From the NCBI GenBank assembly GCA_009602725.1, contig WELB01000020.1, positions 305,476-348,938 on the forward strand: a stretch of DNA of 43,463 bases. Reading direction: 5' to 3'. The translations under genes were made by a program, and so were the position numbers. The stretch comes from Spirogloea muscicola. Lineage: Eukaryota > Streptophyta > Zygnematophyceae > Spirogloeales > Spirogloeaceae. A model generated the notes under the pieces. The model was given only the letters and a program-made list of their open reading frames with translations. It had not been told where the DNA came from and did no database searches. Positions 5,527 through 39,150 of this stretch are shown here, piece by piece (within the stretch, counting starts at the first letter, position 1; each line of letters starts with the position of its first letter).

Positions 5527-5602
5527 TCTTTTTGGGCTGGCTTTTCCCCTTTTCCCCTTGGGCTGGCCTCTCCCAGCCACCAGTTAATCTGGCCGCGCTT
5601 GC
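5527..5602 (+). repeat. Retroelement 3' tail module, plus orientation
   Basis: It contains the hairpin GGCTGG-CCTCTC-CCAGCC at 5561-5578, followed by ACCAGTTAATCTGGCCGCGC. The same string recurs at 38547-38588 and, inverted, at 5874-5915. A partial first copy of the hairpin (TTTTTGGGCTGGCTTTTCCC) precedes it. Confidence 0.75.
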
Positions 5603-5608
5603 ACTTTC

Positions 5609-5665
5609 CCAGCCCCTATCCTCAAAGAAAGAGAGAAGGGCTCGCCCATTGAGGATAGGGGCTGG
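5609..5665. repeat. 17-bp perfect inverted repeat with 23-nt loop
   Basis: The left arm is 5609-5625 (CCAGCCCCTATCCTCAA) and the right arm 5649-5665 is its exact complement. It lies where a plus-oriented and a minus-oriented retroelement tail abut. Confidence 0.85.
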
Positions 5666-5940
5666 AAAAAGCAAGCCCAGAAAAGAATGAACGAAGGACG
5701 AGAAGGGGCCAGGGGAAGTACGAAGAACAACAAGCACAGAAACGAAGCAGCTACGAAGCACTCAACCTCTGCTAAGCAGCCTCAGGTCAAAGAAAGGGCT
5801 CGCCCATAGAGAAGAGGGGCTAGCAAAGCCAGCCCATCAAGAATGGACAATGTCCAAAGCCAAAGGTAAAAAGGCAAGCGCGGCCAGATTGACTGGTGGC
5901 TGGGAGAGGCCAGCTCAAAGGAATGGACAAGGTCCGAAGG
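5638..5940 (-). repeat. Three tandem retroelement 3' tail modules, minus orientation
   Basis: Copies lie at about 5638-5700, 5791-5865 and 5874-5940. Each reads, on the minus strand, a small hairpin (TGGACATTGTCCA or GGACCTTGTCC), then CATTC with T-rich sequence, then GGGCTGGC...GCCAGCCC-type pairing. Two copies then end in a GGGCGAGCCC tail and the third in the ACCAGT...GCGCTTGC tail. Confidence 0.75.
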
Positions 5941-5980
5941 AGCCGGAGTGCTAAGGACTAAGACAGCAGCAAGCGGACTC

Positions 5981-6385
5981 TCAGTAACCTCTAGTCAGTA
6001 GATGCAAGTCTGAATCGCTAGCAGGCGGAAAGCCGTCGCCCTGACGGAAGCCGGAGGCCGCCGCCAAAGCGCGGCCTGCGCGCAAGTGGACCGCGAAGGC
6101 AAGGGACCGCTGCAAAGAGATGGCCAAGCGCATCCGTAAGACTTGGGCGAGGGACCCGGCGACATTGAAGCCAGGCTGCTCTCTCTGCTGCCCGTGGCTG
6201 CGGGCCGCTGCTCGCCGCGCAAGGTGGTGAAGAAGGTCAAGCCATTTTGCGCCAAAGGCTCCGTGTACGTCGACGGTGAGTGAGACAAACTCGTCTCTCA
6301 CCTGGTGATCCGAGTATTGCCGTTCCTTGGCGCTTGCCGTTTGGCGGACTTCGTAGCCCGCCTCCTCCGACGAGCGTTTGGCGCT
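5981..6385 (-). mobile_element. Non-LTR retrotransposon fragment: C-terminal endonuclease domain, ends LLTRGY-stop
   Basis: This is the best preserved C-terminal copy. On the minus strand an open frame reads SSEEAGYEVRQTASAKERQY, then VSLTVDVHGAFGAKWLDLLH, then LAQVLRMRLAISLQRSLAFA and RAGRALAAASGFRQGD, ending LLTRGY and TGA at 5981. The K-x-x-Q/H-Y segment followed by D-V-x-G-A-F-G and an R-M-R-L-A-x-x-L-Q-R helix is the pattern found at the C-terminus of many reverse-transcriptase-encoding elements that carry a PD-(D/E)XK-like nuclease. The assignment comes from family pattern memory and was not checked by a search. It is 5' truncated, with no reverse transcriptase nearby. Confidence 0.65.
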
Positions 6386-6480
6386 CCTGGAATCAAAGAG
6401 TCAGTCAGTCAAAGAAAGAGGTGCCGAAAAAGGACTACACTATAAAACACCACAAAATACAAGACGATGCAGAGGGAAGC

Positions 6481-6684
6481 TCAGTACCCGCGAGTGAGCA
6501 ACATCAAGTCGGAGTAGCTCGCTGCAGGGAAAGAGGCATTCCGCCGAGACCCAGAGGCGGCGGCCATAGCACGGCCTGCTCGCGTGTGGACGGCGTAGGC
6601 AAGGGAAAAGAAAAGCGCGCCCATAGAAAAGAGGGGCTGGCCAAGCCAGCCCAAAAAAGAATGGACAATGTCCAAAGCCAAAGC
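6481..6684 (-). mobile_element. Retrotransposon end fragment plus tail module
   Basis: Minus strand. The terminal coding stretch at 6481-6600 (RAGRAMAAASGSRRNASF, then LLTRGY and stop) is preceded on that strand by a separate tail module at 6603-6684 with hairpins TGGACATTGTCCA and GGGCTGGCTTGGCCAGCCCC. The piece is nested among other copies. Confidence 0.65.
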
Positions 6685-6925
6685 AAGAGGAGCCGGAGAA
6701 AGGACTACACTACAACATACTGCAGAACACAGAAACGATGCAGAGGAAAGCTCAGTACCCACGAGTGAGCAACACGTTGAAACGATACCGCCAGGCGCAT
6801 TCGGAATACCTGGGCGAGCGAACCGGCGGCGTTGAAGCCGGGCATCGCCCCTGGCAGACCCGGCCGCCTGTCAATGGCCTGACGGGCAAGCCGCTGGAGG
6901 AGATCCAGCCAGCGGCTGCCGAAAG

Positions 6926-7079
6926 AAGTGGCTCTCCCAATGGGGGCAAGGGCTGTGCCAGCCCGAAAAGAATTGACAAGGTTCGAAGGGGCCAAAGTAC
7001 GAGCTAAGCAGCGACTACGGGGCCTGAAGAGGCTATGGCGGAACGGGGGAGGATGGACCACTCAGTAATTACGAGTGAG
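6926..7079 (-). mobile_element. 154-bp tail-only retroelement insertion with 9-bp target-site duplication
   Basis: The segment interrupts the endonuclease fragment exactly between the GAFG and WLDLL motifs. It is flanked by TGCCGAAAG at 6917-6925 and again at 7080-7088. On the minus strand the insert starts at the CTCACTCGTAATTACTGAG end of the coding region and runs through both 3' hairpins to GGGAGAGCCACTT. Near-identical sequence occurs at 33559-33716. Confidence 0.85.
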
Positions 7080-7159
7080 TGCCGAAAGCCCCGTATACAT
7101 CTATCGCCAGGGCCGCGACTTCATCACCAACCAGGTGATCGGCATATTGCAGGGCATGC

Positions 7160-7210
7160 GGTCGGTCCAGCCGGCTCGGGGCTCCTTGCCCCGGGCCGGC
7201 TGGACCGACC
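7160..7210. repeat. Strong hairpin: 23-bp stem, 5-nt loop
   Basis: The arms 7160-7182 and 7188-7210 pair over 23 positions with a single T/C difference (a G-U pair in one RNA strand) around the loop TCCTT. It lies inside the frameshifted retrotransposon fragment. Confidence 0.9.
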
Positions 7211-7518
7211 GAGGGTCCTGCAAACGAGGCCGACCTGGTGGGATTGGCGGAGTCGATGCAGTCAGTTGTCACACATCGGCGATGATGCGAGGACCGCCGC
7301 CTGGCGGGATGGCGACCAGGTCGGCGCGTCGAGTATGGGGCTGGCCGTCCGCGCCCAGCTGGATGGGCACTGTTGCGGTTGTTTTCCACAGCCACCTTGA
7401 AGCCCGCCTCCATGAACACCCCCTGCATGCCATCGCGCAGGAGATCGCGGGAACCGGTCCGCTCGCCCCCGTGCGCGCAACGGAGCATATGCGCAGCCAG
7501 CTCCGCTCAAAGGGCGAG

Positions 7519-7581
7519 CCCTTCTCTCTTTCGCTGGGCTGGCCTCTCCTCTCCCTGCCACCGCCCTCTCCTGGAAGCGTC
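7519..7581 (+). repeat. Retroelement tail module, variant ending CTCCTGGAAGCG
   Basis: GGGCTGGCCTCTCC is followed by CCACCGCCCTCTCCTGGAAGCG. The same ending recurs at 38449-38470 and, inverted, near 26205-26235, so this is a separate tail subfamily. Confidence 0.6.
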
Positions 7582-9182
7582 TTCCTCCCTTCCGGTGAAA
7601 AGATCCCTCGCCTTCTGAAGCTGAAGTGCTGGCAGCTGTTCTTGACCAACACACTGCACGTTGTCTTTCTTCACAGGATCCCAAAGTCTAGCCTGTGCAT
7701 CCAGAGTCAATTGCTCTATGAATTGCCATAGGCTCTGCGAGCCGAAATGCACGTTTCTTGCCTCCTATGGTGTCCTCTACACGTTATTTGGACGTCACGC
7801 AGTCAGTTACTTAGTCAGCTTCAGCTTGTACGTGGCCGCTAATGCCATCGTTTTAGTAGCAGCCAACTCCTTCCACTCTCCCTCTCTTTTCAAAAAACTT
7901 CTATCAGTTGTTAAAACTCAATCGTACAGCACCACTCCTCACATTGTTCATTCCTTACAGCGATTTTTGGCCCTTTCGGCCTTGCTACTGTCTTAGCACT
8001 TAGTATATTGCCTTCTGCGCCATCCGGCTCCTACAGACCTTGTCCATTTCTTTGGGCTGGCCTCTCCCAGCCACCAGTCAGTTGGGTCGCGCTTTCTTGT
8101 CGGACCTAGTGATTGTTTTGGGGCTAGCTTTTCACAGCCCTCGTCCCCGCCCTCGCCCCCTACCACAAGTGCCACATTCTTTGAGCTGGCCTCTCACAGC
8201 CATTGCCTTGCGTTGAAGGAGCTGTTACTCTCTGTTTCACCCACATCATCAATGCCTCCCCTCCCTCTCCAGTTAAATTGCATTTTACAGAATGCAGCTA
8301 TTGCTTAGCTTACAGCGCTTCCAAGCTCTGGGTATTCATCAGCATGCTGGGCTCTAAGTCAGGCCACCAGCTTCTGTGGCGGCGCTCCGGCTCCCCAAAT
8401 AAGCCTGTCGGATCTGTATGCGCTCATTCGTGGTTGTTACCTTCACGCTGTTACATCAGCCACCTGAGCATAGTGCTTCAATGAGTGTAGCCCCATACTT
8501 TGCACTCGCTTCTGCCTGTACAGTGTATTGGCTTCAGTTGGCAACCCTCTCTTATATGCGCACCGCGCGCTTTTCTCTACAGCCGCCTCCCCGGCCAGCA
8601 CTCCCTTCTTCCTCTATCCCGCTTTCTCCCCGCCTCTGCCACTTTCCCCATTCACTTGCTTGTAACAAGACACTGTTTCCAAGTCTTTCCCCCACGCTCA
8701 ATGTGCAAATGCTACACCTCTGCTTCCTCAGGCCCAGCTTGCCTTGACCTGCCACTCTGCAAGAAAGAGAAAGTTGATCCACTGAGGTTGCCTCTTGGCA
8801 ATTCCCAGAAGCTCTAACACTTCCTGCCACGTATCGCCATGGAGCACGTGAGAAAGGCGCGCAATTCGCACGTAATGAGAGGGAGGCCAAAAGCAAGCCA
8901 GTCCAGTGTTGGTATGAGTACAAAGGAATTTATAAGAGGTGTACGCAAACACTCCAGCCCTGCTATAGCTGAGATATTACTTGCGCAAGGCACAAGTCAC
9001 TTCCCCCCCCCTCTTCCCTCTTTGACATAAATTCATTGCAATCAAGGGATTAGCTTAAGAGCTTGCATGCTGTGAGCAGAGCAGCTCAATCACACACTGA
9101 CACTCAAGTGCTTGAACACTCCCGCTGGGCAGCAGCAATACTGTATTCAGCCGAGGACTCTGCCAAAAGTAAAGCTCAAGAA
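7582..9182. other. No gene seen; contains tail modules at 8033-8215
   Basis: The ORFs in this stretch are short and without coding character on either strand. Apart from three plus-oriented tail modules I see nothing I can assign. Part of it is presumably 3' flank of MPDU1, which ends at 9183 on the minus strand. Confidence 0.45.
8033..8215 (+). repeat. Three tandem retroelement 3' tail modules
   Basis: Copies lie at about 8036-8098 (GACCTTGTCCATTTC, then GGCTGGCCTCTCCCAGCC, then GCGCTTTCTT), 8101-8160 (GGGGCTAGCTTTTCACAGCCC) and 8170-8215 (GAGCTGGCCTCTCACAGCC). Each keeps the pairing of the second hairpin although the letters differ. Confidence 0.75.
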
Positions 9183-11420: not shown

Positions 11421-11711
11421 GGCGGCCAGGCGCCGCGCCGCAAGCCGCGCCGCGCGCCGCCTTCTCCGCGGCCTCCTGCCTGCGCCGCGCANGCGGATGG
11501 AAGCGAACCTTGTCGAGAAGCTACGCACAAGTTACCGTCGCCACAAAGGTAGCGCAGAGGTAGGATTCAAGAGGGTAACAGCAAGGGTTGCCGGGCGCTC
11601 TTACGCAGTTCTTAGCGGTAGACACGCTCCCGTTATGGGATGAGCTCCGCTCATTTGAACAGTGCCCCTGCCGCCGCAGTCGCGGCGGCCTTCGCGGCAG
11701 CCCCGCCGCGT

Positions 11712-11742
<31 letters not shown>

Positions 11743-11763
11743 ACGAGCACAAGCGCTGTTGTG
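11421..11763. promoter_or_regulatory. Probable bidirectional promoter between MPDU1 and APC6
   Basis: Only 343 bp separate the two start codons. The segment is GC-rich, holds a (GGC)n tract at about 11712-11742 and has no obvious TATA box. It must contain both 5' leaders and start sites. One ambiguous base lies at 11492. Confidence 0.55.
11712..11742 (+). repeat. GGC trinucleotide repeat
   Basis: About ten uninterrupted GGC units lie immediately upstream of the APC6 start codon, probably in the 5' untranslated region. Confidence 0.85.
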
Positions 11764-14700
11764 ATGGTAGGCCCTGCGGCGCGGGCACGGGCGCTCGAGA
11801 GGTTCCCGGAGCTGGCGCGCGACTGCCTGGCCAAGCACCTCCCGGCCTCGGCGGCCTTCTTCGCCGACAAGGCCGTGACGCTGTCCGGCGGCGCGCCCGA
11901 GCACGTCTACCTGCTGGCCGAGGCGCACCACGCCGGCGGGCACCACCGCCGCGCGCTGCAGCTGCTCCGCCAGCGGGGCCTCCTGCGCGCCAACATCCGC
12001 TTCCGCTACCTCGCGGCCAAATGCCTGGTATGCTGGCGCCACTCGTGCCCGCCTCGGATGACCTGAGCTGCCATGCAGCGAGGTGCATGTGCTGCCAGTA
12101 GAATCTGCATACAAGATCTGCAGCGGACGTCCTTTGCAGCTGTGACCTCCAGCTCGAGTCAAAGTTCCAGCTAGCTTCTGGAAGTAGGAGCTACTGTACT
12201 GTCGGATGTGCTTGCTTGTCCAGCTGATCAAGCGGCACGTGCTGTAATCAAAAGGATGGCATGCCAACTTCTTCAGACTTGCGGCCAAGGGAGGACTGTC
12301 TTCTACTGTCAATGCCAGCTTCACAGCTTGTCAGCAACTGCTCATGAATGTGTGCTGTGCTGTCCGGATGCTCACGCATCATGGACGGCAGGCACTGGCA
12401 GTGGTGTTGCAGCGCCGGCTTCTACTGACAGAGTGATACTTGGTGAGCTTCAGGAGGCTTCTAAGGACTGGGAGGAGTGCCTGGCTATGCTGGGAGAGGA
12501 TATGGATGTAGAGGAGGACAACAGGGCCCTGCACAACGATGGTCGAGCTGGCCGTGAGATAGATGTACGCCCAAGCGCTCCAACTCCAGAACATGTAGGG
12601 GAGGAAAGCTGCAGTATGTCTGCCTGTGACTTACGGCAAAGCCTGTACTCTGTATAGTAATGGTCAGCGACTTTTCACAGACTCCTGTTTAACATGTTTC
12701 AAATCGGGTGGGCAGCTTTCATAGCTATACAGTCTTAGACAAGTCTTTGGATGCATCGAGACACACTGAGTTTTGAATTCCAACCATCAAAGGTTGTTGA
12801 GCACTTGTGCTTGTTGTCTAGTATTTCCACAGATCCCCAGCAATTCCTCATTGATCTCCAGTATTGCTTCTCAGTGACTGCAGATTGTTGCTGCAGCTTG
12901 CCTCCTCCGTGGGAATGCATATCATGCACTGGATAACCGCGCTAAGGCCACGTATTGGTTAGTGATCAAAGCTCTCCACAGTCAGTGGCGCTATCAAACA
13001 GTAGGTCTTCAGACAACCAAACAGAGCTCTGTCCCTGTTGCTGACACCTTGGTTCCTTGTTAAGCAGGAGTCATGCTCAACAAGTCCTCTCTCAACGCTG
13101 GCACCTTGGTTCCTGATCAGCTGCAGTCATGCTTAGCAAGTCCACTCTTAGCACAGGGAAAAGAGTAGCCGAAAAGCAAAGCAACAGCTGCTATCAGGCT
13201 ACACGGTTGCGCCTAAGATGGGCTAATATGACGGGTTCACATGTCAATGACAGGTACAGAAGCGCAATACAACGTGATCCCTACTGCTTTGAGGTTATCA
13301 CACAGACCTGAATGTTGTGCTCGTTGTCTGCTCCAGAAATATCTGTCAGGAACACACTTCCGTGTGAAAGAGCCACAATACGTCTGCTGCTTATACTGCC
13401 TGCATTGGAAGCTTAAACCCAATTGTGAAGCTTGTGTAACACAATGTGCCAGGCCGTAATTCTCTACACAGCCAAGCCCTCATTTCCTTGTCTTACACTG
13501 CCATGACCTTGCAGGCCCTGGATCAGCTCTTCAGCAACCACATGCTAACTGGGAAAGAAGGTGATGTCTCTAAAGAAGACGAATCTTGATGTGTATTTGG
13601 AGTTGTCCATATGGTTGTACTTCTGACACAGACATTGTGAGAGCAGGAGCCAAAACAGGGCAAGTGTGTTGTGGGGTGGTGGGAGGGGTTTACAAATTGG
13701 AGAGGTGCTGTGTCAAGCTGTACATAAGAATGATGACATGCACTGGGCACCGAGGCCAACAGTTGTTGGTTCCTAATGAGCGACATGCTTCGTGAGCCTA
13801 GAAAGCTCCTGTCTGACTTTTGCTAGTTTCTCAGTCAGCATATGCAGTTAGGATGGTTTGACTGGAGCCTTGTGACAAGTATTTTGGGACAAAATATTTA
13901 TCTGCGTCCCATTGACTTAGATAGTCTGACAGCCGAGGGCTACTGGGCATTACCCCTTGGAGCTCTTTAGACAGCACTGAGATGGCAGGACGGCTGCTTT
14001 GAATGCTATGATGATTTTCTGTACCATCAAATTCCTAGCTGCCGGCAGGCAGTGAGGAAGTTTTTAAATCTGAGCACTTTACAACAGGCTGAGATGGGAG
14101 CGGGGGGCAGGTTGGTCGCACCCAGAAACGTGCGACTTTTTCTTGTCAAGCTGATCAAGGCGCAGCTCAACCATCTCAGGCATATCCATATCTGCACATA
14201 CAAGCATAGACTGCTGAAGAAGGCAATTGATTGGCATGTGTAACTGTTTCAACCTACAGAGCAGGACTTACTTGCAGCCATTCACCTTGGGCCACACGAT
14301 GATTGGTTGTTGATCTTGTACACTTTGCAAGCAAAGAAGGTAAGCTGGCCCATGCTACTCACGATCCTTGTCAGGATGATACAAGTCACCTTGGATTTGG
14401 TTGATTATGACAGCACCAAATTCCCTTCCCTTGTGCATGCTCAATCTAGCATAACTGAAGAGAAGAACTGACCTTGAATGCTGGGCTGGAGAACACCGCA
14501 TTATCAGAACCATATGTAAAGGACCGGTGGTTGTGGGAGCTGCTTACTTTGTTGAGCTTCTGACCTTGATATGCCGCAGTATGGTGAGGCTGAGGTGATT
14601 GAGAAGAAATTTGCTGAACTGGAGGCAACCATAGACGACGCTTGTGAACGTGATAGAGGTGCAGCAAGTACGTCAATGTCGATGAGTACAAATGGCATTG

Positions 14701-24854: not shown

Positions 24855-25690
24855 CTTGGCCGAAGGACTTGGACGACTCGCCACAGGCAGGAGAGAGAGC
24901 AAAACCGACGGGCGCGCGCTCTGGCTCGGCGAGCCGACACAGCGGGAGGGAGATCTGCCCCTCGACAGCCCTGCACGGCAGTGGCGAGCGAAGGGCGCAA
25001 GTTTCCGTCGGCAGAGCCTCGGCGCGAATAACGAGAGCCTGAAAATCCGAACGGCAGCAAGACCGGCAGCCGACGCGGACTACGGCGGGCGGCTGCACGG
25101 CGCGGCAGGGCCGGCGCGCGGCGCGGCGGAGATGGCGCGGGGGAGGCGTTGGAGTCCGGGGCGGGTCAAGTGAATGGCGAATTGGCGGGAGGGGCGATGG
25201 AAAAATTTAATTGCCGTCCCGCCTGTGGTAACGGGACTGGGCTGGGCTGGGGCCGCGCTGCCCCCGGCACATCATCGCGAACGGACCCGCCGGGCAAACC
25301 CCAACCGCCCGCTGCGCCTCGCGCGGCGGAGGGCCGCACTGCTCCTTCCCGACGCAGGGGTCCTGTTCACATTGGCCGAGCCGCCTCCGCCGGCGTTCCG
25401 GCGGGCCTGACGAGAGGCGCGCCACTAGGATATGGTTCCGTTGACGTTCTTGTCACCAACCGTGACAGGCCCGGTGTAGCTCCTACTGAAGAGAGAAGGC
25501 GCGCGGAGCGCATGGTATTAAAGGGAGGCCAATTCAAACCAATACATTGTGCAGGCAGGGTCTAGTGCAAATTAAACAAGGCTACATAACACGGATACCT
25601 AAATTGAGGTGCCTAAGCTTACATCAGTACCCACGGGTGAGCACAAACAAATCCGACAAGCTAACTTGGGGGGCTGGAGCGCCGCCACGA
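24855..25690. promoter_or_regulatory. GC-rich upstream region of Rab1, no gene
   Basis: The first 350 bp or so are very GC-rich and presumably hold the Rab1 promoter and leader. Towards 25600 the sequence becomes retroelement-like (ATCAGTACCCACGGGTGAGC at about 25622, compare the LLTRGY-stop end of other copies). Confidence 0.4.
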
Positions 25691-26238
25691 AAGTCGGAGG
25701 CCTGACTTAGAGCGTGCCCTGCACGTTGATGAATAGCCAATGCTTGCGAGCGCTGCAAATTAAGGGAAAGCCGCATTTCATAATGTGCAGCTTAGGCCTG
25801 CGGAATGCTGGAGTGGCCCAAGCTGCCCCCCCGACTTCGACGACGCGCATCAACCAGCCGGGCCAGATGCTGGATCAGGGAGGACCATTATACGCCGTAG
25901 CCTCTGCAGATATCCATGGAATACGGATAAAGATGGTCCCCTCGGGGTTGGTCCTGGTAGTGCCGCTCCTTCTTGCGCTCCGCGCTGGACGTGGCCCAGC
26001 CAGACACGGTTGACGTGGGTGCGCCAGCCTTGTATGCGTCGATCAGTACCACGTCCAGGAGTAGACGAGGCCCCACCGCCACGGGGGTTGGCGACCACGT
26101 CCAGACGCCGCACATATGGCTTGCCGCGCCCTGAGGAGATTGGCACAATACCGGAAGAAGAAAGAGAAATTGGCATTATGCCACCAAAGAAGAAAGAAGA
26201 AGGACGCTTCCAGGGGAGGGCGGTGGCTGAGATGAATT
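25690..26238 (-). mobile_element. Retrotransposon endonuclease fragment with nuclease core
   Basis: On the minus strand, two frames joined by a frameshift read PISSGRGKPYVRRLDVVANP then RLLLDVVLIDAYKAGAP, AERKKERHYQDQP and LYPYSMDICRGYGV. The R-R-x-D-V-V ... L-L-D-V ... K-x-x-x-H-Y order matches the other copies and is the clearest PD-(D/E)XK-like core in the window. Upstream, at 26205-26238, is the CTGGAAGCG tail variant of another copy, so copies are stacked head to tail. Confidence 0.6.
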
Positions 26239-26318
26239 AGTGGCTCTCCCAATGGGGGCAAGGGCTGTGATAAGCCAGCCCGAAAGACATTGACAAGGTT
26301 CGAAGGGGCCAAACTACG
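26239..26318 (-). repeat. Retroelement 3' tail module
   Basis: The sequence AGTGGCTCTCCCAATGGGGG, then GGGCTGTGATAAGCCAGCCC and TTGACAAGGTTCGAA, matches 6926-7010 and 33559-33640 closely. The second hairpin pairs across TGATAA. Confidence 0.8.
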
Positions 26319-26543
26319 AAGGGGCCAAAAAGCGCTATTTCAGAAATGGTGTAGAACGTACCACTCAAAAACTAAGAGTGAGGAGCCTCAATTCGGCAGA
26401 CTAGCTGCCGGAAAGGCCAGCCCAGAAAAATGAACGAACAAAGAACTAAAGCTCTTCCAATAATTTAATGCACGAAGCGGGGGGCGGCTTGTGAAGATAA
26501 GGGGTGAACGTAGCTCCGTTCACGAGCTGAGAGGAAGCCTACT

Positions 26544-26609
26544 TCCAAGGGGGCGACGGCTTTGGAAAGCCAGGCCAAAAGAGCACGGACAAGGTCCAAC
26601 GATCCCAAG
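26544..26609 (-). repeat. Retroelement 3' tail module, diverged
   Basis: GGCTTTGGAAAGCCAGGCC is followed by GGACAAGGTCC, the same two-hairpin order as other copies. Confidence 0.6.
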
Positions 26610-26969: not shown

Positions 26970-27978
26970 TGTCCTCTTGCCGCTCGAGCTGGTCCCAACT
27001 CAACATGGGAGTCATTCACCATTGTGTTGTGATGTGAGGGAAGACGCAGCTCTCGCAAACGGAAGTTCAGGGCCCGACAGGTACCACCTAAGAGATACGA
27101 CATATGCCTGGTTTCTGGTGTTATCGTCATTGACCACAGCATCGTCATCAAAGTGCTGTTCTAATTGCTTTGCTGGGATCTGCTATGTTAATCAGACAGA
27201 AAGTACATGGAGCTCACCTCTGGCTTTGCCTGTGCAACAAGAGTATCACGATATCTTGCGACCTGAATGAGAAGTCTACATGCTGGAGCTTGACACGCAG
27301 CTTGCAAGCGTGGCAACTGAGAGAATCTGAGTGCAAGCATGCACAGCACAACTGACTGCAAAGAACGCAGACGGTGTGAAGAGCTCTTCATTGTTCGATG
27401 TAAGAATGCCATGACCAAAGGCAGCGTGAGCTCTCAATAGGTCGAGGTAAATTAAGTATTACCTAATGGTGGAAGGTAGAGGAGACAGCTTCACCAGAAG
27501 AAGCGAAGGCTGCACAGGGCCAGCCCTATATAGCATGACTAGGTGCATAGGAGATGGGAAGGAAGGCAGGGCCTTAGTATTCATGACAGTCAGCTATGAC
27601 GGGGCAATGTACCGTACCCACTGTTTGTAAGCGCCCAATTTTTGAAACCGTTCCAGATTGTTGGCGCCGATTGTGAAGGCCAGCCCATAAAGCTTTGCAG
27701 GAAAGAGCATACTCACACATCTACGCAGGTGGCTACAACACATGGGTGCTCAATAACCCCTGGTCAGCAGGCAAGTCAGAGTTGAGTTTCTCACCCACAA
27801 TCGAACCCATGGACCTTGCCCATGCAGAGGTTGTTGCTATATTACATTTGCAATTCCCCCTGCAATTCCCCGGTTGCATAAATTGCGCTGCTCACTAGGG
27901 GATAGTGGGCACCCAGCCACTTTGAGTCGCTGTGTGCCCTAACGGTTTGCTGGCCTCTACAAATCTCGTTCAATCTTA
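26970..27978. other. No gene seen
   Basis: Short ORFs only, with no recognisable domain or splice pattern on either strand. A small GGCCAGCCC motif near 27677 may be a remnant tail module. Confidence 0.4.
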
Positions 27979-28401
27979 ATCTGGGCTGGCAAATTACAGC
28001 CATCGCCCTCTACTGAAAGAGTCTCTTCTCTTTGGGGAGCTGGATAACGGCAGGGAGACTGCGTGGAGACCATGCCACGCTCTTAGAGGGGCAAACGTGC
28101 AGGCCCGTAATGCTCAAGCTGGACACGAGCAGAGAAAGAAGGAGCTCTTCACAGAATGGTAATGGTCATTACAGGCCAGAGGGGCCTGTGCCCCAACCTT
28201 TACGAGATACTTTACGCTATTGTTGCTCAACCACCGGCAGCCCAAGCTTGGCAATCCGGTCGCATTTGTGACAATTCGTTGCAAGAAGCGCAGCTCGACG
28301 ACAGTGCCGCTAGCACGCTCCCTCAGGTGTTCTTTGTTCGCATGGCAGCCAAGCTTCAGCGGTCCCTGGCTTTTACAGTGACATTTGGCGGCTCTTTCTA
28401 A
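27979..28401 (+). mobile_element. Plus-oriented retroelement remnants: tail module and endonuclease fragment
   Basis: At 27979-28020 the sequence CTGGGCTGGCAAATTACAGCC is a diverged tail hairpin. At 28156-28401 a plus frame ends QVFFVRMAAKLQRSLAFTVT, which aligns with LAQVLRMRLAISLQRSLAFA of the 5981 copy. This is one of the few coding fragments in plus orientation. Confidence 0.5.
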
Positions 28402-29759: not shown

Positions 29760-30937
29760 ATATCTCAATGACATGTGTCACAATTTGTCATTCTTGACTA
29801 AAGGGTGACAAATTTTTCAAGATGTTTCAAAACCAACGCACTGTGTTAGTGTCAGTGTCGTAAAGAAAAAGAAAGTTGCCATCATTTGGTATCTTCGTCA
29901 GCTTTTACCAAACTCGATGATCTTGCAGGTAGTCAATCCTTCAAGAAAACACTGACATGAGATTTACCTCATTTCGTGACAGATGAAACGATTTTAAATG
30001 ACCAAGACGCAAGATGCAGTAATTTGAAGCAGCAGATTGCTTTGAGCAGGTGTTTTATAACACAAAACTTTGTTAAATAATCAATCTGCACTTCTAAACG
30101 TGGAAAAAGCGGAATGGAGGTTAAGACATAATCAACAATTACAATTATGCGAATCAAACAATGTGGTTGATATTGTGAGAACCTGGTTAAATGTTCAATT
30201 TGCTACGATGATAATTTTGAAAGTTGATGTATAAGGTAGTTGTGCTTTGTGGAGATTTACACTTTTTTGATGTGAAATCTTAGGTGAGATTGAATCATTT
30301 GTGGTTTGTATTCTAAGAATATAGATTGGACATGTGTGCAAAGACTGGGCATATGAGATTTATAACAGATAAATATCTTGCGAAACTAGGTGGACCACCA
30401 TGTGAAGTACGTTAACACACCAATCTCACATGTCAAAAAATGCAAGTGTTAGGGTAACATGTGAGGTATATGTTACAAAAATATTCTAGGTATCTAAACA
30501 GATTGATCACACCAAGTACATTCTTATTTGCTAGTGTCTGCTTGAGTGCAAAATAGTGTGATTTTATCCGTCTATTTAGATTGGCTGACGATCAGAAAAT
30601 ACTGTCAAGCGTGCTATCTATTATTTTGATGGAAAAACTTTAAGGTGCGCAACGTTATTGAAGATATCACTTTCAACATAAACATTCATGAGTGTCATTT
30701 GAAGCACATAATGCACGTAATATCATTAACAACAATAAGATTTTTAGGAGCACATGATGCACATAATAATGTTTGCACATCATGCCATCAACAATAATAG
30801 CATACAATTGTACACAATAATCAACAACACTTCGTGTTGGAGAATGAAAAGCTGGATAGACAATGATCCTGTATGTCTTTAAAATCTCTCTGACCTGTGT
30901 CAATTCTAAAAATTGACATTTCTCAAACTCCTTTGAT
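29760..30937. other. AT-rich 3' flank of PstS-like copy 1, no gene
   Basis: This is about 1.2 kb of markedly AT-rich DNA with no ORF of coding character, in sharp contrast to the GC-rich gene beside it. The frame-shifted ORF of copy 1 runs into it as far as 30673. Confidence 0.6.
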
Positions 30938-32161
30938 TTACGCGATGGTAGCAACTGCATTTCTGTTCTGAGTGAGCAGGCTGCTGGGATCTGGGACGAA
31001 GTTGAGGGGAGCAAGAAGGCCCTGGCCGCTGGAAGAGAACATGAAGTTGAGGAAAGCCTTGGTTGCGGCAGCATTAGGATGCCGGTGGGGTAGGTCTTGC
31101 GAGCCCAGATGTACACGAACGAGACCATTGGGCACACGCCTGACCCCGGCTGGTAGATGGTGTTCACGCCAGACCAGGTGGCGGTGGCAGAGGGCAGGGA
31201 GACGGGGATGGCGCCAGTCACGGAGCATGAGTTGCCCTTGTAGTTTTGCCCGGCCTTGTTGTTGGTGGCAGCAATGCGGACGTTGCCGGTTACAAACGTG
31301 ACGGCTACGGGATTGCCCAAGTAGCCGATGGATCCGGGGTGGGAGAAGACATAGGAAGCCACGCCGCTGGAGCCGCTGGCGGTCACCAGGCGGGGAGAGC
31401 CCCAGGCCACCACCTCACCGACCTTGCTTGAGGGCCACGGGCGCGCGCCACCGGCGGTGCACAGGTTCAGGTAGGAGGAGAAGACGAACGACGTGCCCGA
31501 GGAGTCGGAGCGGGCCACGGGGATGGTGATGGCACCACTGCCGATGGAGGTGGAGAAACCAGAGTAGAGGTCAGCCAGGCTCTGGCAAGAAATGGTGAGC
31601 TGAGTGGCGCCGTTGTAGAGCATGGAGTAGGCCTGGAGGCCCTGGGGGACGGTCAGCTTGCTGAAGCCCAGGCTGGACTCCTGAGCGGTGGTCATGGCAG
31701 CATCGGACGCGGCCACCTTGTAGTCGTTGGTCTTGAAATTGGCGTAACCAGCGCCGGAACTGCCAGCAGATCAAAAGCCACAGCGTGGCCAGTCAGTGGT
31801 GCTGCCGTGCCACGGAGGTGGAGGTCGTTCGGAAGCAAATCATGCATGAAGTTCAGCCGTGGTAGACCGCTCATGATTGTCTACCGTGATATTTAGGCCC
31901 TTAGCTGAGGTTCAAGAGCAGGCAACAACAATCCGGTCGAAGTCAAGACTTCCTCCACCATATCTACTTGGAGGCAAGGTCTGAGCTGACTCACCCAGTT
32001 GCGCCGTAGCAGCCATAGGTGCCGTAGCTGCTGAGGACCTGGTTCTCAAGCCCCTGCACGGAGGTGGCACCTCCGAAGTAGATAGCATTGGATGGGGAGC
32101 AAGTGGCGATCACCGCAGTGGCGAAGGCCAGGACGACGATAGCGATGGCGAGGCGGGCCAT
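30938..32161 (-). pseudogene. PstS-like phosphate-binding protein, copy 1, frameshifted near the C-terminus
   Basis: PstS proteins bind phosphate outside the membrane. Exon 1 is 32161-31995 and exon 2 starts at 31759, with GG|T split at the intron as in copy 2. It has a signal peptide (MARLAIAIVVLAFATAV), SDAAMTTAQESSLGFSKL and the phosphate-binding-type ARSDSSGTSFVF and HPGSIGYLG. At about 31072-31085 the sequence is 4 nt shorter than copy 2 right after YIWARKTYPTG. The frame then leaves the conserved C-terminus, which continues in another frame as NAAATKAFLNF to VATIA and a stop at 30938. The unshifted frame stays open to 30673. This may be a decaying duplicate, or a 3-bp deletion plus a 1-base sequencing error. 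Confidence 0.8.
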
Positions 32162-33100
32162 GGCTGCGGCTCTGGCACAGGCCTGACTGAGCTTTGGGGT
32201 GGGCGGTGAGGGTGCAGAGGGCAGGGTGTGAGCTGGTTTGGTCCTGTGCGGCGGTCATATACTTCTGGCCGGCAAGAGCTTCCGGGGCTTCCCGAGGCCA
32301 CCACCCCCTTCCTCCACCCCTCCTACCTCCCCCTCCCTCCTCCCTTGCTGCGCATCCGCCGTCAGTGGAGCCCCCCCTCTCCCCGTCAAGCGGCCCGCCC
32401 GCCCGCCGCCGTTACCCAGCATCCAGCGCCGCCGCCGCCGTCGCCGCCGGCGAGCACGCCGCCGATCGCGCCGCCGCACCCGCTGATGGGAAGATTCCTC
32501 TCGACAGGCCCGCCGCCAGGTACGGCTTGATGCGCGGCCGTGCCTTCCTGGACGCGGCGCCTCGCCACCGCCAGGCGAGGGTCCCGCCCATCCCAGTCCT
32601 GGTACCTTGGTAGATCCAGGGGACCTTCCCCTGGTTGCAGCTGCTGATTGGCCCACCCAAAAGCTTCCCCAGCCCCGACCTGAAACAACACCCGCCGCCT
32701 ACAGCGTGTAATTGGGTGTCCTCTAGATCGCTCTTGGGAAGTATGGCAGCATCCCACGCATTCCAAATAGGCAGCTTCTGGTACGTTAGATTCTGCGGCT
32801 TGACACTTGGACGCACTCGTAGCCGCCACCACCGTGGCTTCGGCGCAGAAGACGCTGCTCGACTCTTCGCCGTTGCAGCGCAGAAGCAGTGGCGGGTTCT
32901 TCTGCGGTCAGCCCTACTGTACGTGTTAGCCAAGCATGTGCACACCTCAGCTGCTCATTTTGGCTCCGTGAAGCGGCGGGTACCTTGTGCAAATATACCC
33001 TCCTGTTTGAGGCTGGCTGGCCAGCTGTCCGCTGGCGAGCAAGCCACCGGCGCGCGAGCCAGCCTGATTTTACTCCCCAAATTGGGCTAGTCATCCACAG
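32162..33100. other. Upstream region of PstS copy 1; GC-rich, no gene assigned
   Basis: GC-rich DNA with CCT/CCC and GCC runs at 32300-32470. A minus-strand frame at 32412-32945 is long but has no recognisable motif, and I do not call it a gene. Confidence 0.4.
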
Positions 33101-33228
33101 CCCCCCGCCCCTTTGAAAGAAGCTCATTTCTTTGGGGCAGGGTTTTCACATCCCATAGCCCAATTTCAATATCAAGTCTAGTCCGCTGAAGTGAGCTCTT
33201 CCGAAGGGGGCGAGGGCCCAGAGACAAG

Positions 33229-33480
33229 AGCTCGCCCAACTTAAGAAGTTGGCTGGAAAAGACCAGCCCAAAAAGAATGGACAAGGTCCGAAGAGCCGCA
33301 AGCCGGGAGCCGCGTAAAACCACACAGCTATGCACGAGACTACTTCGGAGGGGACCTTAGTAACCCCGGGCAGCAAGTCGGAGTAACTTGCACCTGGAAA
33401 AGAGGCACTGCGACGGGACCCAGAGGCAGCAGCAATAGCACGGCCTGCCCTCGGCAAGTGCACGGCGTGAGCCAGGGAGC
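33229..33480 (-). mobile_element. Retroelement tail module and end fragment
   Basis: The module at 33229-33294 has GGCTGGAAAAGACCAGCCC and GGACAAGGTCC. Next to it, at 33354-33480, the minus frame reads RAGRAIAAASGSRRSASFPG, then diverges before the usual LLTRGY end. Confidence 0.65.
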
Positions 33481-33558
33481 GTTAAAAGGAGACAGGGAGC
33501 CGCATGCGGACAGGGAGGAGAGTCACGTAAGAAGCTGGTGCCCCTGTACGAGAAGAGA

Positions 33559-33935
33559 AGAAGTGGCGCTCCCAATGGGGGCAAGGGCTGTGAGAAGCCA
33601 GCCCGAAAAGAATTGACAAGTTTCGAAGGGGCCAAACTACGAGCTAAGCAGCGACTGCGGGGCCTGAAGAGGCTATGGCAGAACGGGGGAGGATGGACCA
33701 CTTAGTAGTTACGAGTGAGGAGCCTCACATCCGACAGACTAGCTGCCGGTAAACTATCCACCTGACGAAAGCCGGAGGCCGCAGCGAGAGCACGGCCAGC
33801 ACGCAGATGCAAGGCGTGGGCCATGGACCGCTGGAGGGAGACGGACAAGCGCATACGATACACCTGAGCCCACGAGCCAGCGGCGTTGAAGTCAGCCGGC
33901 TCACCGCGCCTGCTGGTGGTACGAGGCATTAGTGT
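33559..33935 (-). mobile_element. Retrotransposon 3' end: endonuclease C-terminus, LLTRNY-stop and complete tail
   Basis: This copy joins coding end and tail without interruption. At 33702-33935 the minus frame reads DFNAAGSWAQVYRMRLSVSL, HALHLRAGRALAAASGFRQ and LLTRNY-TGA. The next 150 nt at 33559-33716 match the 154-bp insertion at 6926-7079. It is therefore the reference that links the structured tail to the coding region. Confidence 0.75.
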
Positions 33936-34206
33936 GGAGCAAACTGGGTTCACGCAAGAGGCAGTGGTTGTGACGAGCCATAACTGATGAGAAATTGTCA
34001 TATGATGTCACATGATAGCTTATGAATAGGCTGAGAGTGTTAGGTTAAGAATTGGTGATCATGGACACAATCGGTGGACGTAACCCGAGTACACAAGCAA
34101 TGTGAGGCGACAGCAATGCCAGTGGCCACGAGACAGGCGGAAGCTCGGCCGACGTCCACGACTCAACGCTTACAAACGAGCGCCATTCGGCCCCTCCCGA
34201 CTTTGA

Positions 34207-34256
34207 ACTTTCTTTTGGGGTGGCCTCTCACAGCCACCAGTTATTTCGGAAGCGCT
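34207..34256 (+). repeat. Retroelement tail module, plus orientation
   Basis: GGTGGCCTCTCACAGCCACC is followed by AGTTATTTCGGAAGCGC, a diverged version of the ACCAGTTAATCTGGCCGCGC tail. Confidence 0.6.
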
Positions 34257-34609
34257 GTTCGTTAGGACCAAACAACAATAACGAAAGCGGAAATTGGGTC
34301 GAGTGGGCGCGCGCAAGATTCTGGTCACCGCAAGCTTGGTCAGCAGACGCGGTTTTGGAGGTACGGATCTTGGAGGTACGGGAGGAGGATTCCGGTGGAT
34401 CTGGATGTTTCCCCTCGCGGGGAGGGGGTGTTGCCGTTGGCAGGTGGAAGAGGGCGGGCAAGCGGGTGGCCGCTCCAGCGGCGGCCGGAAGGGAAGATTC
34501 CGGTATATCCCCGGAATCTCCCACCGGAAGGAGCCGGGCGCCCCCGCTCGGGCAGCGGGGCAGTCGCCCGGCGGGCGGCTCCCGGCGAGGAGCCGCCTCG
34601 TACCTCCGC

Positions 34610-34671
34610 AGCAGCCATGGCGGCGGCTGCGGCGGCGGCAACGGCGGCGGCGGCGGCGGCGGTGCTGCGGA
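34610..34671 (+). repeat. GGC trinucleotide repeat tract
   Basis: GCGGCGGC units with interruptions, ending at an ambiguous base (34672), upstream of PstS copy 2. Confidence 0.75.
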
Positions 34672-34888
34672 NAGAGGGAGCTGCACAGTGCTCAGAGCGC
34701 TGGCCTGGGAGGAAGGGTAGAGCTTTGGAGCTTTTGGAGGGAGGGGAGAGGGAGAGGGCCCGGGGGCCCCCCTGCCAAGGGGCATCGGGCAGGGTTACCC
34801 GGGGTACAAGTTGTCCGGCATAACTCCGGCGCTGGACACACTTGCAACTCGACGCACAGTCCTCCCCACCGCCTAGCTGTCAGCAGTC

Positions 34889-36104
34889 ATGGCCCGCCTC
34901 GCCATCGCTATCGTTGTCCTGGCCTTCGCCACCGCAGCGGTCGCCACTTGCTCCCCGTCCAATGCTATCTACTTCGGAGGTGCCACCTCCGTGCAGGGGC
35001 TTGAGAACCAGGTCCTCAGCAGCTATGGCACCTATGGCTGTTACGGCGCAACTGGGTAAGTCAGCTCAATCCTTGCCTCCAAGCAGATATGGTGGAGGAA
35101 GTCTTGACTTCGACCGAATTGTTGTTGCCTGCTCTTGCCTCTCAGCTGAGGGCCTAGCTGTGACGGTAATGGGCGGTCTACACACATTTCATGCATGAGC
35201 TGCTCACCAACGACCTCCACCTCTGTGGCACTGCAGCACCACTGACTGGCCACGCTGTGGCTTTTGATCTGCTGGCAGTTCCGGCGCTGGTTACGCCAAC
35301 TTCAAGACCAACGACTACAAGGTGGCCGCGTCCGATGCTGCCATGACCACCGCTCAGGAGTCCAGCCTGGGCTTCAGCAAGCTGACCGTCCCCCAGGGCC
35401 TCCAGGCCTACTCCATGCTCTACAACGGCGCCACTCAGCTCACCATTTCTTGCCAGAGCCTTGCTGACCTCTACTCTGGCTTCTCCACCTCCATCGGCAG
35501 CGGTGCCATCACCATTCCCGTGGCCCGTTCCGACTCCTCGGGCACGTCGTTCGTCTTCTCCTCCTACCTGAACCTGTGCACCGCCGGTGGTGCGCGCCCG
35601 TGGCCCTCAAGCAAGGTCGGTGAGGTGGTAGCCTGGGGCTCTCCCCGCCTGGTGACCGCCAGCGGCTCCAGCGGCGTGGCTTCCTACGTCTTCTCCCACC
35701 CCGGATCCATCGGCTACTTGGGCAACCCTGTAGCCGTCACGTTTGTGACCGGCAACGTCCGCATTGCTGCAACCAACAACAAGGCCGGGCAAAACTACAA
35801 GGGCAATTCATGCTCCGTGACTGGCGCCATCCCCGTCTCCTTGCCCTCTGCCACCGCCACCTGGTCTGGCGTGAATACCATCTACCAGCCGGGGTCAGGC
35901 GTGTGCCCAATGGTCTCGTTCGTGTACATCTGGGCTCGCAAGACCTACCCCACCGGCTCCGTGCCCAACGCTGCCGCAACCAAGGCTTTCCTCAACTTCA
36001 TGTTCTCTTCCAGCGGCCAGGGCCTTCTTGCTCCCCTCAACTTCGTCCCAGATCCCAGCAGCCTGCTCACTCAGAACAGGAATGCAGTTGCTACCATCGC
36101 GTAA
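34889..36104 (+). CDS. PstS-like secreted phosphate-binding protein, copy 2 (intact)
   Basis: Exon 1 is 34889-35055 and exon 2 is 35279-36104 (TAA), giving 330 residues, close to bacterial PstS length. The N-terminus MARLAIAIVVLAFATAAVA is a signal peptide. IYFGGATSVQGLENQ followed by GSGAGYANF and VAASDAAMT matches the PstS start (G-A-G/S-T ... G-S-G-A-G ... F-x-A-S-D-A). IPVARSDSSGTSFVFSSYL is the R-S-D-x-S-G-T phosphate-site motif, and HPGSIGYLGNP the later G-S-I-G-Y motif. Phosphate as ligand is inference from these motifs. No GPI signal or second hydrophobic segment is evident, so it may be secreted or held in the wall. It is divergent from copy 1, and even the intron is largely conserved between the two. 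Confidence 0.9.
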
Positions 36105-37180
36105 ATCTTTAGAATCCTTAGATACTTGTACTCTAGAGAACTGTATTCAAATTGAAGCAAAGTCATTGATCGATTGGCAATTGACATCTGCTAATAGATC
36201 TTGTGATGGCATTACATTATCATCTGCTCGTAACCAAGATTCGTAAAGACATGCGGTTATGCACCTCAGTGCACCCCAGCGAGTACAAAATGAAAATACA
36301 TCAAACGATTAATAATACAAATTAAAAAACATCAATCATGTGTCATCAGATCCCAAGAAACTTCTCAACACACTCCATTTTGTCTAACAATTATTTATTT
36401 CCGACAACTATCATTCGTTAGTATACATTCCACATGGTGTCGACCTGATATCTGCATAATTGTATTTTCCACTCGCAATTTACATTTGGCCCCAACTTCG
36501 TCCACCGTAACATCTCACACTCGTGATTACAAACCAAGAGATTCCTCGCGATTCTCTCGTTGCTCCAACATTTGTCCACTATACCATTCCATTAAAAGTT
36601 TCTTTCTCTTTACGTACAAAGTTGACATTGAAGAAGAAAATTGTAGACTTACAAGTAAATACTTGGTGTTACGAAAGATGAAAATAAGTCTAATCTAGTC
36701 CTAAAATATACTATGATGATGTGACGCTGCATTCGACAAGTGCAAAAATCAGTATCTAAAAGATCATTTGGACAATGCAGAATCGTCGGATCCACTGACC
36801 ACATTTCAAGGTCACATGAATCCCACCACGTTCAAAACCTCAAGTGTTGTTACGAAACAACCATGTTCGTAGGATTTGCTCACAACAATTTGCTGCATCA
36901 AGTTGCTGCTTTTGCATCACGAACATGTGAAATTGGCGCATGTCACTAGATGATGTTACATATAATGTCAACGTCAACTTGTAAAATCTACCATCTTGCA
37001 ACTTTATTTGGTTGCGTATAAGCTGGCTAGCACACCACTGAGGCAAGCAATACATCTGACAATACTGACACTAACATTGTTAATTTTGAAATATCTGGGA
37101 CGCTGTCATCACTTAACAAAAATAGCAGATTGTGTTAAGAAGCTGTAATAGTGACTGCACTTCGGTGACTGGCTACTAGA
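36105..37180. other. AT-rich 3' flank of PstS-like copy 2, no gene
   Basis: About 1 kb of AT-rich DNA with no coding ORF, comparable to the AT-rich flank beyond copy 1. Confidence 0.6.
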
Positions 37181-37261
37181 TCTTGTTGACATCGATCCTA
37201 AGTACATATGCCCTTGCTTTGGCTTGCAGTCGAAGACGAGGCAGTCCCTACTCAAGCCATG

Positions 37262-37520
37262 CTCATGGGTACATAACATCTCATATCTCTTCCTTAATAT
37301 CTGGCTTTGCCATTCGGAGCCTCTTCCTTTTTCTTGCAGAAAAGAATTCAGTCTCATGTGCTACATTCAGTGACGAAAGCCATATCACCGTTTGGACTTA
37401 GCCTCCGCCAGCAATACCTTATCTTGGAAAATTGTTCATCTCAACACGGACGGTCGACGGGTTTCATCACGTTCTCATGTTGGCCGTAGAACATGCCTCT
37501 TGGGCCTTGTTCAATCTTTT
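37262..37520 (+). repeat. Dispersed repeat B, copy 2
   Basis: Related to 29370-29690 in inverted orientation, with small indels that break the frame. A shared protein-level string is SHVGRRTCLLGL here against SHVGRRLCPLGL there. Confidence 0.65.
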
Positions 37521-37739
37521 GTGGGCTCGCGTTTGGCAGCCCTCGCCCCTTCGAAGAGGTGGCGTACATTTGTCAATGTGCTTGCCTTTGTATTTGGCCA
37601 CACAGGCCCTCCATCTCTTAATACACAATCCATCCCTTTTGAGGTGGAGCTTGTACTGAGTGCTGGAGGGTCTGAGTAGCCAAGCACATAGGCAAGCACA
37701 TCAACAGGAAAACCATCACCTGCTGCTAAGCTGACCCGC

Positions 37740-37931
37740 TCAGTAACCACGAGTTAGTACGTAGAGGTCGCTAAGTGATGCCCGAACATCGGACGGCAAA
37801 TGACAAGCTCTCATGCCACCAGCTAAAGCTCGACCAGCTTTCTGGTGCAAAGCATGAGCCTGAGCTCGCTGCCAACAGGCTGACACACGATGTCGCAAAA
37901 ACATTAAATATGCTGCCGGCGTGATATCCAT
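37740..37931 (-). mobile_element. Retrotransposon end fragment, LLTRGY-type end
   Basis: Minus frame HALHQKAGRALAGGMRACHL, then SLSDLYVLTRGY and stop, a diverged version of the 33702 copy. A related frame (AEITPAAIDNL) may extend it towards 38195. Confidence 0.6.
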
Positions 37932-38406
37932 CTCGGCTGGAAGCGTATCCTCATCTCGTGCATATCCCAGACTACAATGTCCTCAAGCAGGATCAATACG
38001 AGGACCTATGCAGCACAAGTTGTCAATTGCTGCTGGGGTAATCTCAGCAGTGCAGCAGCTTTCTCTGCTCTGCATTTCCCACTGCGTGACCAGCAATATG
38101 GTTCGATGCTGTACGCTTGAAGCCTCCGTCACAATCCCATCACCAAGGCTTGTGGACCTCCGCCAGGTTGTACACCCGTAATGTCGAAGGTGCAACGGTG
38201 ATGGCGTCCCTAAGCATCCGTGGTTATGGCGTGAAGTTGTTCACCTCCACAGGGAGGTTTGGAAGAGAGCTGCTTCTGTCTGTTGGGCTTGGCATGCACA
38301 ACCACAGCCCTACTTTGCAATAGGAAACGCTTCCATGGCTGTCAACTCCATCCAAGGGCGTTAATAGGAGAGTCCTTGGCAAGGGGCCCCTTTCCCTGGC
38401 CCCTTT

Positions 38407-38591
38407 CGACCTTCTGTTCATTCTTTTTTCTGGGCTTACCTCTCGCAGCCACCGACCTCTCCTGGAAGCGTCTCTCGTTCCTCTTGGGGCAGGGGAGAGG
38501 AGCAAGGAGCGAAGGGCGCCAACTAGTGTGCCTTGTCCATTCTTTTGGGCTGGCCTCTCCCAGCCACCAGTTAATCTGGCCGCGCTTGCTT
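38407..38591 (+). repeat. Two retroelement tail modules, plus orientation
   Basis: The first, 38407-38470, carries the CTCTCCTGGAAGCG ending. The second, 38531-38591, reads CCTTGTCCATTC, then GGCTGGCCTCTCCCAGCC and ACCAGTTAATCTGGCCGCGC, almost the same as 5558-5602. Confidence 0.75.
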
Positions 38592-38935
38592 CGTGTGGAG
38601 AGGCCCTGCCCTGCGGTTGGGAGCGGTGACGTGGCAGGCGACGTCTCCGAGGGAGACCCGGGCGGGCCACGCGTCAGCCGGAGCAGCGCCGGGTGACCTG
38701 GCGGGCCCCGGCCCCCCCTTCCGTGGGCGAAAGCCCCGGCGCTCCGCGGGACGCCCATCTCGTGAGTGCCCGCCGATGATTTAAATCGCCTCCGAAAGGG
38801 GGGGAGCCGGGGGCGGGCGGCCAATCCTGGCCCTACCCCGCTTGAGCCCCCCCCCGCCATCGCCCCCCCGGCTGACGCAGCGCCCACTTGGCAGCCCCGC
38901 CCCGACAGGAGACGCCGACGAGAATGACGGAAAGA
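38592..38935. other. GC-rich stretch, no gene
   Basis: Very GC-rich with long C and G runs (for example at 38848-38870). No credible coding frame was seen. Confidence 0.4.
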
Positions 38936-39150
38936 AACGGCGTCTTCCAATGCAAAAGCGATGGCCGTGAGAGGCAAGCCCAGAGAAGAGAAGCACTGTC
39001 AAATCCCGTCAATGGCTGTCAGAGGTCAGCCCACAGAAATGGACAGTCCAAGAGGAAGTGGCTCTCCCAAAGGCTGTGAAAAAGCCAGCCCTAGATGATT
39101 AACAAGGTCCCGAGAAGAAGTGAGCTCGTCCAAAGGTCTGAACAAGGCCG
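38936..39150 (-). repeat. Four tandem retroelement tail modules, minus orientation
   Basis: Successive copies contain GGCCGTGAGAGGCAAGCCC, GGCTGTCAGAGGTCAGCCC, GGCTGTGAAAAAGCCAGCCC and AGGTCTGAACAAGGCC. Each is followed, where preserved, by a short ACAAGGTCC-like or GGACAGTCC hairpin. The spacing is about 50-60 nt. Confidence 0.7.

Follow-up and report, generated by a model that had tools for sequence, protein, structure and literature searches.

Tail modules in the window and the genome

The window analysed here, 43,463 nucleotides (nt) of Spirogloea muscicola contig WELB01000020.1 (positions 305,476 to 348,938), contains many short repeats scattered over both strands. These repeats are the fixed 3′ end tags, here called tails, of a recently active retrotransposon family. 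A sequence-only model of the tail was built from 13 seeds, six of which (A2, E, F, H1, J, and G) were derived from the window and, having been used to build the model, match it by construction. The model matches the window 24 times at an expectation value (E) below 0.001 and 29 times at E ≤ 0.1, in both orientations. A first-pass annotation had proposed at least 18 modules in both orientations, and all 12 of its example intervals overlap matches to the model. The common order that it had described is likewise present: GTCC, a ATTCTTTT spacer, GGCTGG-loop-CCAGCC, a linker, TGG..G.GC, and the end. The last ~70–77 nt of the RNA comprise a GTCCATTC block, a near-invariant GGGCTGG-loop-CCAGCC hairpin (hairpin 2), a linker of pyrimidines, a block resembling TGG(G)CGNGC, and an end that is specific to the family. 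Several tail types do occur, as had been claimed; in place of the three or four then counted, we use ten labels (A–H, J, and K), which were assigned by hand and are not a formal clustering.

The 5′ part of an E-type tail breaks off in the loop of hairpin 2 (5508–5548, plus strand, E = 8.9e-08) and is followed by an A-type tail (5553–5600, plus, E = 5.6e-09) and a further E-type tail (5634–5705, minus, E = 4.5e-15, model seed). The minus strand then carries a B-type tail (5793–5859, E = 4e-14), an A-type tail downstream of an A-family open reading frame (ORF) end (5873–5943, E = 6.9e-18, model seed), another B-type tail (6609–6678, E = 4.4e-15), and a C-type tail (6927–6992, E = 1.3e-14). On the plus strand are a partial H-type tail (7529–7586, E = 4.7e-06), an A-type tail (8028–8096, E = 3.4e-15), a partial tail (8099–8147, E = 6.4e-06), and a D-type tail (8176–8226, E = 1.6e-08). 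Farther along, beyond a split H-type tail that is described below, lie tails of J type (26533–26603, minus, E = 6.7e-13, model seed), H type (27963–28027, plus, E = 1.7e-06), F type (33225–33296, minus, E = 3.7e-18, model seed), and C type, the last downstream of a C-family ORF end (33562–33632, minus, E = 2.2e-17). An A-like tail (34191–34260, E = 5.3e-09), the 5′ part of a tail (37497–37551, E = 4.2e-09), an H-type tail (38399–38476, E = 1.2e-14, model seed), and an A-type tail (38529–38589, E = 5.1e-15) occupy the plus strand, and a partial tail (38944–38982, E = 0.0015), a G-type tail (38987–39056, E = 3.5e-12, model seed), and a partial tail abutting the latter (39057–39110, E = 1.1e-05) occupy the minus strand. 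The linker of the F-type tail contains an additional 7-bp hairpin (CCAACTT-CTT-AAGTTGG) that none of the other seed tails showed.

The genome as searched (153 Mb in 471 contigs) holds 970+1016 = 1,986 exact copies of TGGACATTGTCCA (reversed control, 0+1) and 666+707 exact copies of TTTTGGGCTGGCTTTGCCAGCCC (reversed control, 0+0). A blind sample of ten 8-kb chunks yielded 14 tail matches in its 80,000 bases, N included. Tails cover 1.19% of the DNA in the eight readable chunks (55,757 bases; L063, all N, and L067, nearly all N, were excluded) and 3.76% of the window.

The element, its fixed 3′ end, and the tail RNA

The strand that carries a tail also carries, upstream of it, a stop codon preceded by a conserved C-terminus ending in LLTRGY or LLTRNY. 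Three such C-terminal ends were searched genome-wide, and each returned at least 150 scored places; very long open frames encountered in these searches (up to 7,120 amino acids) were set aside, as the three that were inspected are runs of N. The window contains the C-terminal 139 amino acids of the A-family ORF, truncated at the 5′ side (5984–6400, minus; at least 150 genome places), for which a Pfam search found no family above cut-off. It also contains an open frame that has the B-family C-terminus (..LMLLTRGY) and extends through a B tail (6484–6870, minus), the C-terminal frame of the C-family ORF (..LLTRNY; 33705–34007, minus; at least 150 genome places), and the C-terminal frame of a more divergent family (..LSDLYVLTRGY; 37743–37982, minus). 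The element group comprises at least the A, B/B2, and C families, together with more divergent tails.

Long copies in the genome extend this picture. Copies L058 and L060 are 99.93% identical across 4,284 bp and differ in their flanks; they are therefore separate recent insertions. L058 contains a single ORF of 1,358 amino acids, counted from the first Met, that matches the reverse transcriptase family RVT_1 (E = 2.3e-13). The family-A copy L014 also matches RVT_1 (E = 1.5e-14) and shares 70% identity with L058 over the last 400 amino acids. Four C-terminal sequences, two of them nearly identical, have invariant HD, RRADLV, DVV, and K..KY motifs, which we take to be those of a restriction-like endonuclease (RLE); the A-family frame at 5984–6400 falls in this RLE-like region. 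The C-terminal region of the 1,358-residue ORF matches no Pfam domain. Toward the N-terminus, two finger-like motifs can be discerned by eye, and Pfam zf-C2H2 appears at E = 1, below cut-off. The closest solved chains are R2 proteins (E = 0.026–0.071); the same ranking also contains unrelated chains (E = 0.066 and 0.23). An Rfam search of L058, L060, and L014 revealed no ribozyme; its only match, to nuoG, was below threshold. The element thus looks like an R2-like retrotransposon of the kind lacking long terminal repeats (non-LTR), with one ORF predicted to encode a reverse transcriptase and an RLE-like C-terminus. Ahead of the endonuclease-like region, a C/H motif with the spacing C-x1-C-x12-H-x3-C was noted by eye, whereas the consulted part of the literature on RLE elements gives the knuckle spacing as CX2-3CX7-8HX4C (PMC5678591). 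A CCHC knuckle with the published spacing was not found in the aligned C-termini, and we therefore do not claim membership in the R2 clade proper.

Copies of the element end at a fixed 3′ position. Mean pairwise identity in family A is 0.93 in the 25 nt before the end and 0.28 after it (18 loci); the corresponding values are 0.98 and 0.27 in family C (19 loci) and 0.75 and 0.27 in family B (45 loci). The exact terminus GCGCTTGCT is present in 16 of 18 A copies. The 5′ ends, by contrast, range from full length down to tail fragments. Sampled copies of families A, B, and C thus share a common 3′ end that is not poly(A) and stop at the same terminal nucleotide, which rejects a random scatter of ends.

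Conservation between families is strongest in the tail. We compared one copy each of A, B1, B2, and C, keeping the close pair B1-B2 apart (identities of 0.91 in the tail, 0.87 in coding DNA, and 0.75 in the untranslated region, UTR). Between-family identity is 0.74–0.78 in the tail (shuffled mean, 0.42–0.48) and 0.64–0.72 in the last 300–423 nt of coding sequence (shuffled mean, 0.49–0.55; maximum, 0.64). In the 39–68 nt of UTR that separate the stop codon from the tail, it is 0.30–0.67: the A-B2, A-C, and B2-C comparisons fall at or below the shuffled mean, while A-B1 (0.67 versus 0.54) and B1-C (0.55 versus 0.39) lie over the shuffled mean and under the shuffled maximum. Fixed ends and a tail that is conserved over the adjoining UTR would be expected if the element's own reverse transcriptase recognises the 3′ end, and the tail is probably that recognised end. 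The proposal that the modules are a retrotransposon 3′ tail accordingly stands as to the fixed ends and the conservation, which spares most of the UTR; its further statement that the reverse transcriptase reads the tail is, to us, an inference from these patterns.

A different picture emerged for RNA structure, which the first-pass annotation had taken to be under selection on the strength of compensated stem changes. Covariation was tested with our own R-scape-like script (FastTree tree, Fitch-counted changes placed randomly on the tree, G statistic with average product correction, 150 simulations) on 109 distinct tails out of 139 full-length tails from sampled loci, with L001, L041, and L053 dropped as duplicates. 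No column pair rose above the phylogenetic null (best E = 2.9), and the top pairs resemble family markers rather than base pairs. RNAalifold predicted seven pairs on the 13 seeds, none with a two-sided change. Hairpin 2 (GGGCTGG/CCAGCC) is paired in 90.3% of 746 cells (slid partners, 37–65%), with no two-sided changes. Hairpin 1, the short stem at the start of the module, is paired in 85.5% of 435 cells (slid partners, 22–52%), with three. A competing helix, GTCCAT/ATGGGC, cannot coexist with hairpin 1 and is paired in 79.8% of 649 cells (slid partners, 8–51%), with none; a family-C change in this helix was left uncounted because it is compensated only with a one-base alignment shift. The claims of compensation and of selection through it are thus unsupported in these tails. 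Nor is hairpin 1 a general feature, as had been supposed: by eye, its stem is not kept in TTCGAACCTTGTCAA, the family-C version, or in the E and H versions. Given these losses and the competing helix, we rejected hairpin 1 as a core structure. Among seven example tails, only B and F fold clearly better than shuffled sequences (z = −3.08 and −2.68; E −1.55, A −0.45, D −0.29, C −0.22, H +0.85). What is conserved is the sequence plus one hairpin shape, without covariation. As invariant pairs are uninformative either way, an RNA structure is possible but not demonstrated.

Insertion of copies into older tails

We compiled 92 insertion 3′ junctions: 45 from B, 18 from A, 20 from C, and nine from B2. 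They represent 45 of 65 B matches (20 are without the GGGCGNGC end), 18 of 20 A loci (L041 lies within L015, and L042 is without the end), 20 of 25 C loci (L149 and L150 are mostly N; L112, L114, and L148 are without tail or end), and nine of ten B2 3′ flanks (L143 is mostly N). Twenty of the 92 open into the middle of another tail (12 B, three A, four C, and one B2), compared with 39 of 4000 windows from the blind chunks, 110 of 4000 derived from the window itself, and 1 of 1840 shuffled flanks. Further tail-internal junctions, seen by eye at L110, L121, and L129, are outside this count. In these samples, the tails are often the landing sites of new copies, in both orientations. The 71 junctions outside tails showed no target motif beyond pyrimidines. 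At four B or B2 junctions (L035, L084, L091, and L141), GTAGCTGCT was seen by eye directly behind the tail end; the L035 and L091 versions resemble the UTR of C-type copies and may mark a second favoured target.

Several loci preserve both halves of the interrupted tail. A scan for copies flanked by the 5′ half and the corresponding 3′ half of a tail returned 17 rows, several of which represent one event and some of which are probably spurious. Duplications of 6–18 nt were recognised by eye: GCTTTGC in L018, TCTCCTC in L034, (C)TCTCCC in L093, TTTGCTAGC in L016, ATTGGGAGTACCACTTCT in L035, and AGTCAAT in L037, where the orientations are opposite. Within the window, an H-type tail is split by a family-C copy into a 3′ part (26198–26232, minus, E = 0.0031) and a 5′ part (26410–26446, minus, E = 9.8e-05); the C-type tail of the inserted copy lies between them (26240–26309, minus, E = 3.2e-16), and no clear duplication accompanies the event. 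By eye, an A copy (5873–6411) apparently splits a B copy just ahead of the B tail at 5793–5859, which lies immediately downstream of it, and the full-length L058 apparently sits between two pieces of another tail.

Insertions into tails fall mostly in pyrimidine tracts, namely the spacer, the hairpin loop, the linker, and the end. The share of pyrimidine 5-mers that lie within tails is 1.3–5.7% in the blind chunks and 4.0–13.6% in the tail-rich window. Nine of the 12 sense cases among the 92 junctions begin at model positions 33–38, which correspond to the loop of hairpin 2. Genome-wide, B-type ends meet the loop motif at 60 junctions (some of which look spurious), the spacer before TGGGCTGGC at 170, and TTGTCCATT at 29; of the 109 tails, 35 contain the loop motif, 73 the spacer motif, and 75 TTGTCCATT. 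Allowing for how common each motif is, insertions into the spacer are no rarer than those into the loop. The 20 B tails that fall short of their end have their last match in the linker (six), loop (four), last block (four), arms (four), or spacer (two), a part of them through decay and not through a break. A purine directly follows the loop in 28 cases, and a control site four bases farther along gives 14 (intact tails, 1,373); preferential cutting of the hairpin 2 loop is only a lead.

We think it probable that these modules form the 3′ termini of an R2-like group with recent activity, that the tag is recognised for target-primed reverse transcription, and that new copies nest in older tails. 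The element's protein would bind the tail RNA at its 3′ end, and target-primed reverse transcription would start at the end of the tag, with a nicked pyrimidine tract as the priming site; the CUU-rich RNA end may pair with the target and help priming. Insertion into older tails would then build nested tail clusters, to some of which template jumping may contribute. A bolder version, which we consider unlikely, gives one short sequence two roles, an RNA handle for the reverse transcriptase and a DNA palindrome preferentially cut by the endonuclease, such that each copy provides a new landing pad common to several families and the group grows tail in tail.

Not all results favour this explanation. 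Covariation is missing, the putative endonuclease is identified by motif, and the AlphaFold2 models score low (mean predicted local distance difference test values, 40.7 and 34.6). A local control weakens the preference for tails: in the same loci, 77 of 580 windows placed 70 to 190 nt beyond the junction also start in a tail (12/91, 14/91, 16/91, 15/91, and 12/76 at offsets of +70 to +150, or 13–18%), so that clustering of copies from other causes could account for much of the preference. Copies might simply pile up in gene-poor, repeat-rich stretches, the tails being hit according to local density with no special role as targets. We regard this as possible but doubtful: 20/92 exceeds 77/580 with a one-sided Fisher p of 0.027 (the control windows overlap), the local share falls to 4/75 at +170 and 4/65 at +190, and nesting would itself generate a high local density, although other causes may do so too.

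It is known that R2 is capable of end-to-end template jumping, and tail clusters might arise mainly in this way, with the reverse transcriptase passing between RNA 3′ ends during one insertion and joining tails end to end. The same-orientation, abutting tails at 39057–39110 and 38987–39056, and those in L034, have the appearance that this would predict, but in L018, L016, L034, L037, L093, and L035 the halves of an older tail flank the insert with a short duplication, and L036, L037, L045, and L055 combine opposite orientations. We accordingly give template jumping little weight as the main source of the clusters. It is far less probable still that the tails are an independent short interspersed nuclear element (SINE) family or a host RNA captured later by the element. 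Very short, tail-only pieces do occur, and the sole Rfam match in the window at gathering score is a small nucleolar RNA (snoRNA) located elsewhere; however, in copies of A, B, B2, and C alike, the ORF stop is followed directly by the UTR and the tail, and the short pieces are consistent with 5′ truncation.

Related elements and neighbouring features

The comparisons that follow draw on parts of the cited papers. R2, Utopia, and NeSL, which are long interspersed nuclear elements (LINEs) of the RLE type, resemble the present element in having a single ORF with a reverse transcriptase and a C-terminal zinc-knuckle/endonuclease-like region (PMC4640811, PMC5678591), and R2 retrotransposition requires the 3′ UTR (PMC4176376). 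Unlike R2-type elements, ours has a different knuckle spacing, no rRNA or snRNA target was seen in our samples, and similarity to solved R2 proteins is weak (E = 0.026). Zepp and Zepp-like LINEs of green algae also insert into existing copies, generating arrays that consist mostly of 3′ ends (PMC8226300, PMC3446292). Zepp, however, is L1-type and forms one cluster per chromosome, whereas the copies described here have an RLE-like C-terminus and are dispersed on many contigs, which are not chromosomes. CNL1 of Cryptococcus, a member of the R2 superfamily near MoTeR, is reported to prefer its own copies as insertion sites, has insertions truncated at the 5′ side, and produces duplications of 0–13 bp (PMC12810828); it differs in forming subtelomeric arrays, and the consulted part of that report does not describe a shared conserved tail. 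In the stringent-type elements UnaL2 and ZfL2, assays have demonstrated that the element's own protein reads a stem-loop in the 3′ tail (PMC4176376), in contrast to the present case, in which recognition is suggested by conservation and fixed ends. Judged by titles and the openings of abstracts, literature searches outside subscription papers and Repbase found no description of this tail family or of an RLE LINE that targets its own 3′ tail. With more than 1,000 near-identical tails and recent, near-identical long copies, the group provides a large natural data set in which 3′-end recognition and target choice can be read together. If the tail were indeed both handle and target, this would suggest how an element becomes very abundant while often landing in itself.

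The remaining features of the window lie apart from the tails or beside them. Two gene copies in opposite orientation (30935–32167 and 34883–36107) have arms that are 92–98% complementary, and a 278-residue frame at 35268–36104 matches PBP_like_2 (E = 4.2e-14); as a gene-copy pair, this inverted repeat was ruled out as a part of the element. A Gly-rich frame (39905–40465, plus) is built from repeats of ~30 nt. The snoRNA mentioned above is the C/D snoRNA snoR118 (13726–13819, plus; 44.7 bits against a gathering score of 44). A second dispersed repeat, GGCGCGCGG..GCATG..GGGAGGCCAATTCAA..CCAATACATTG, lies beside tails in the window (25490–25600) and in L060, L073, and L078, and by eye the L060 copy appears to have inserted into it.

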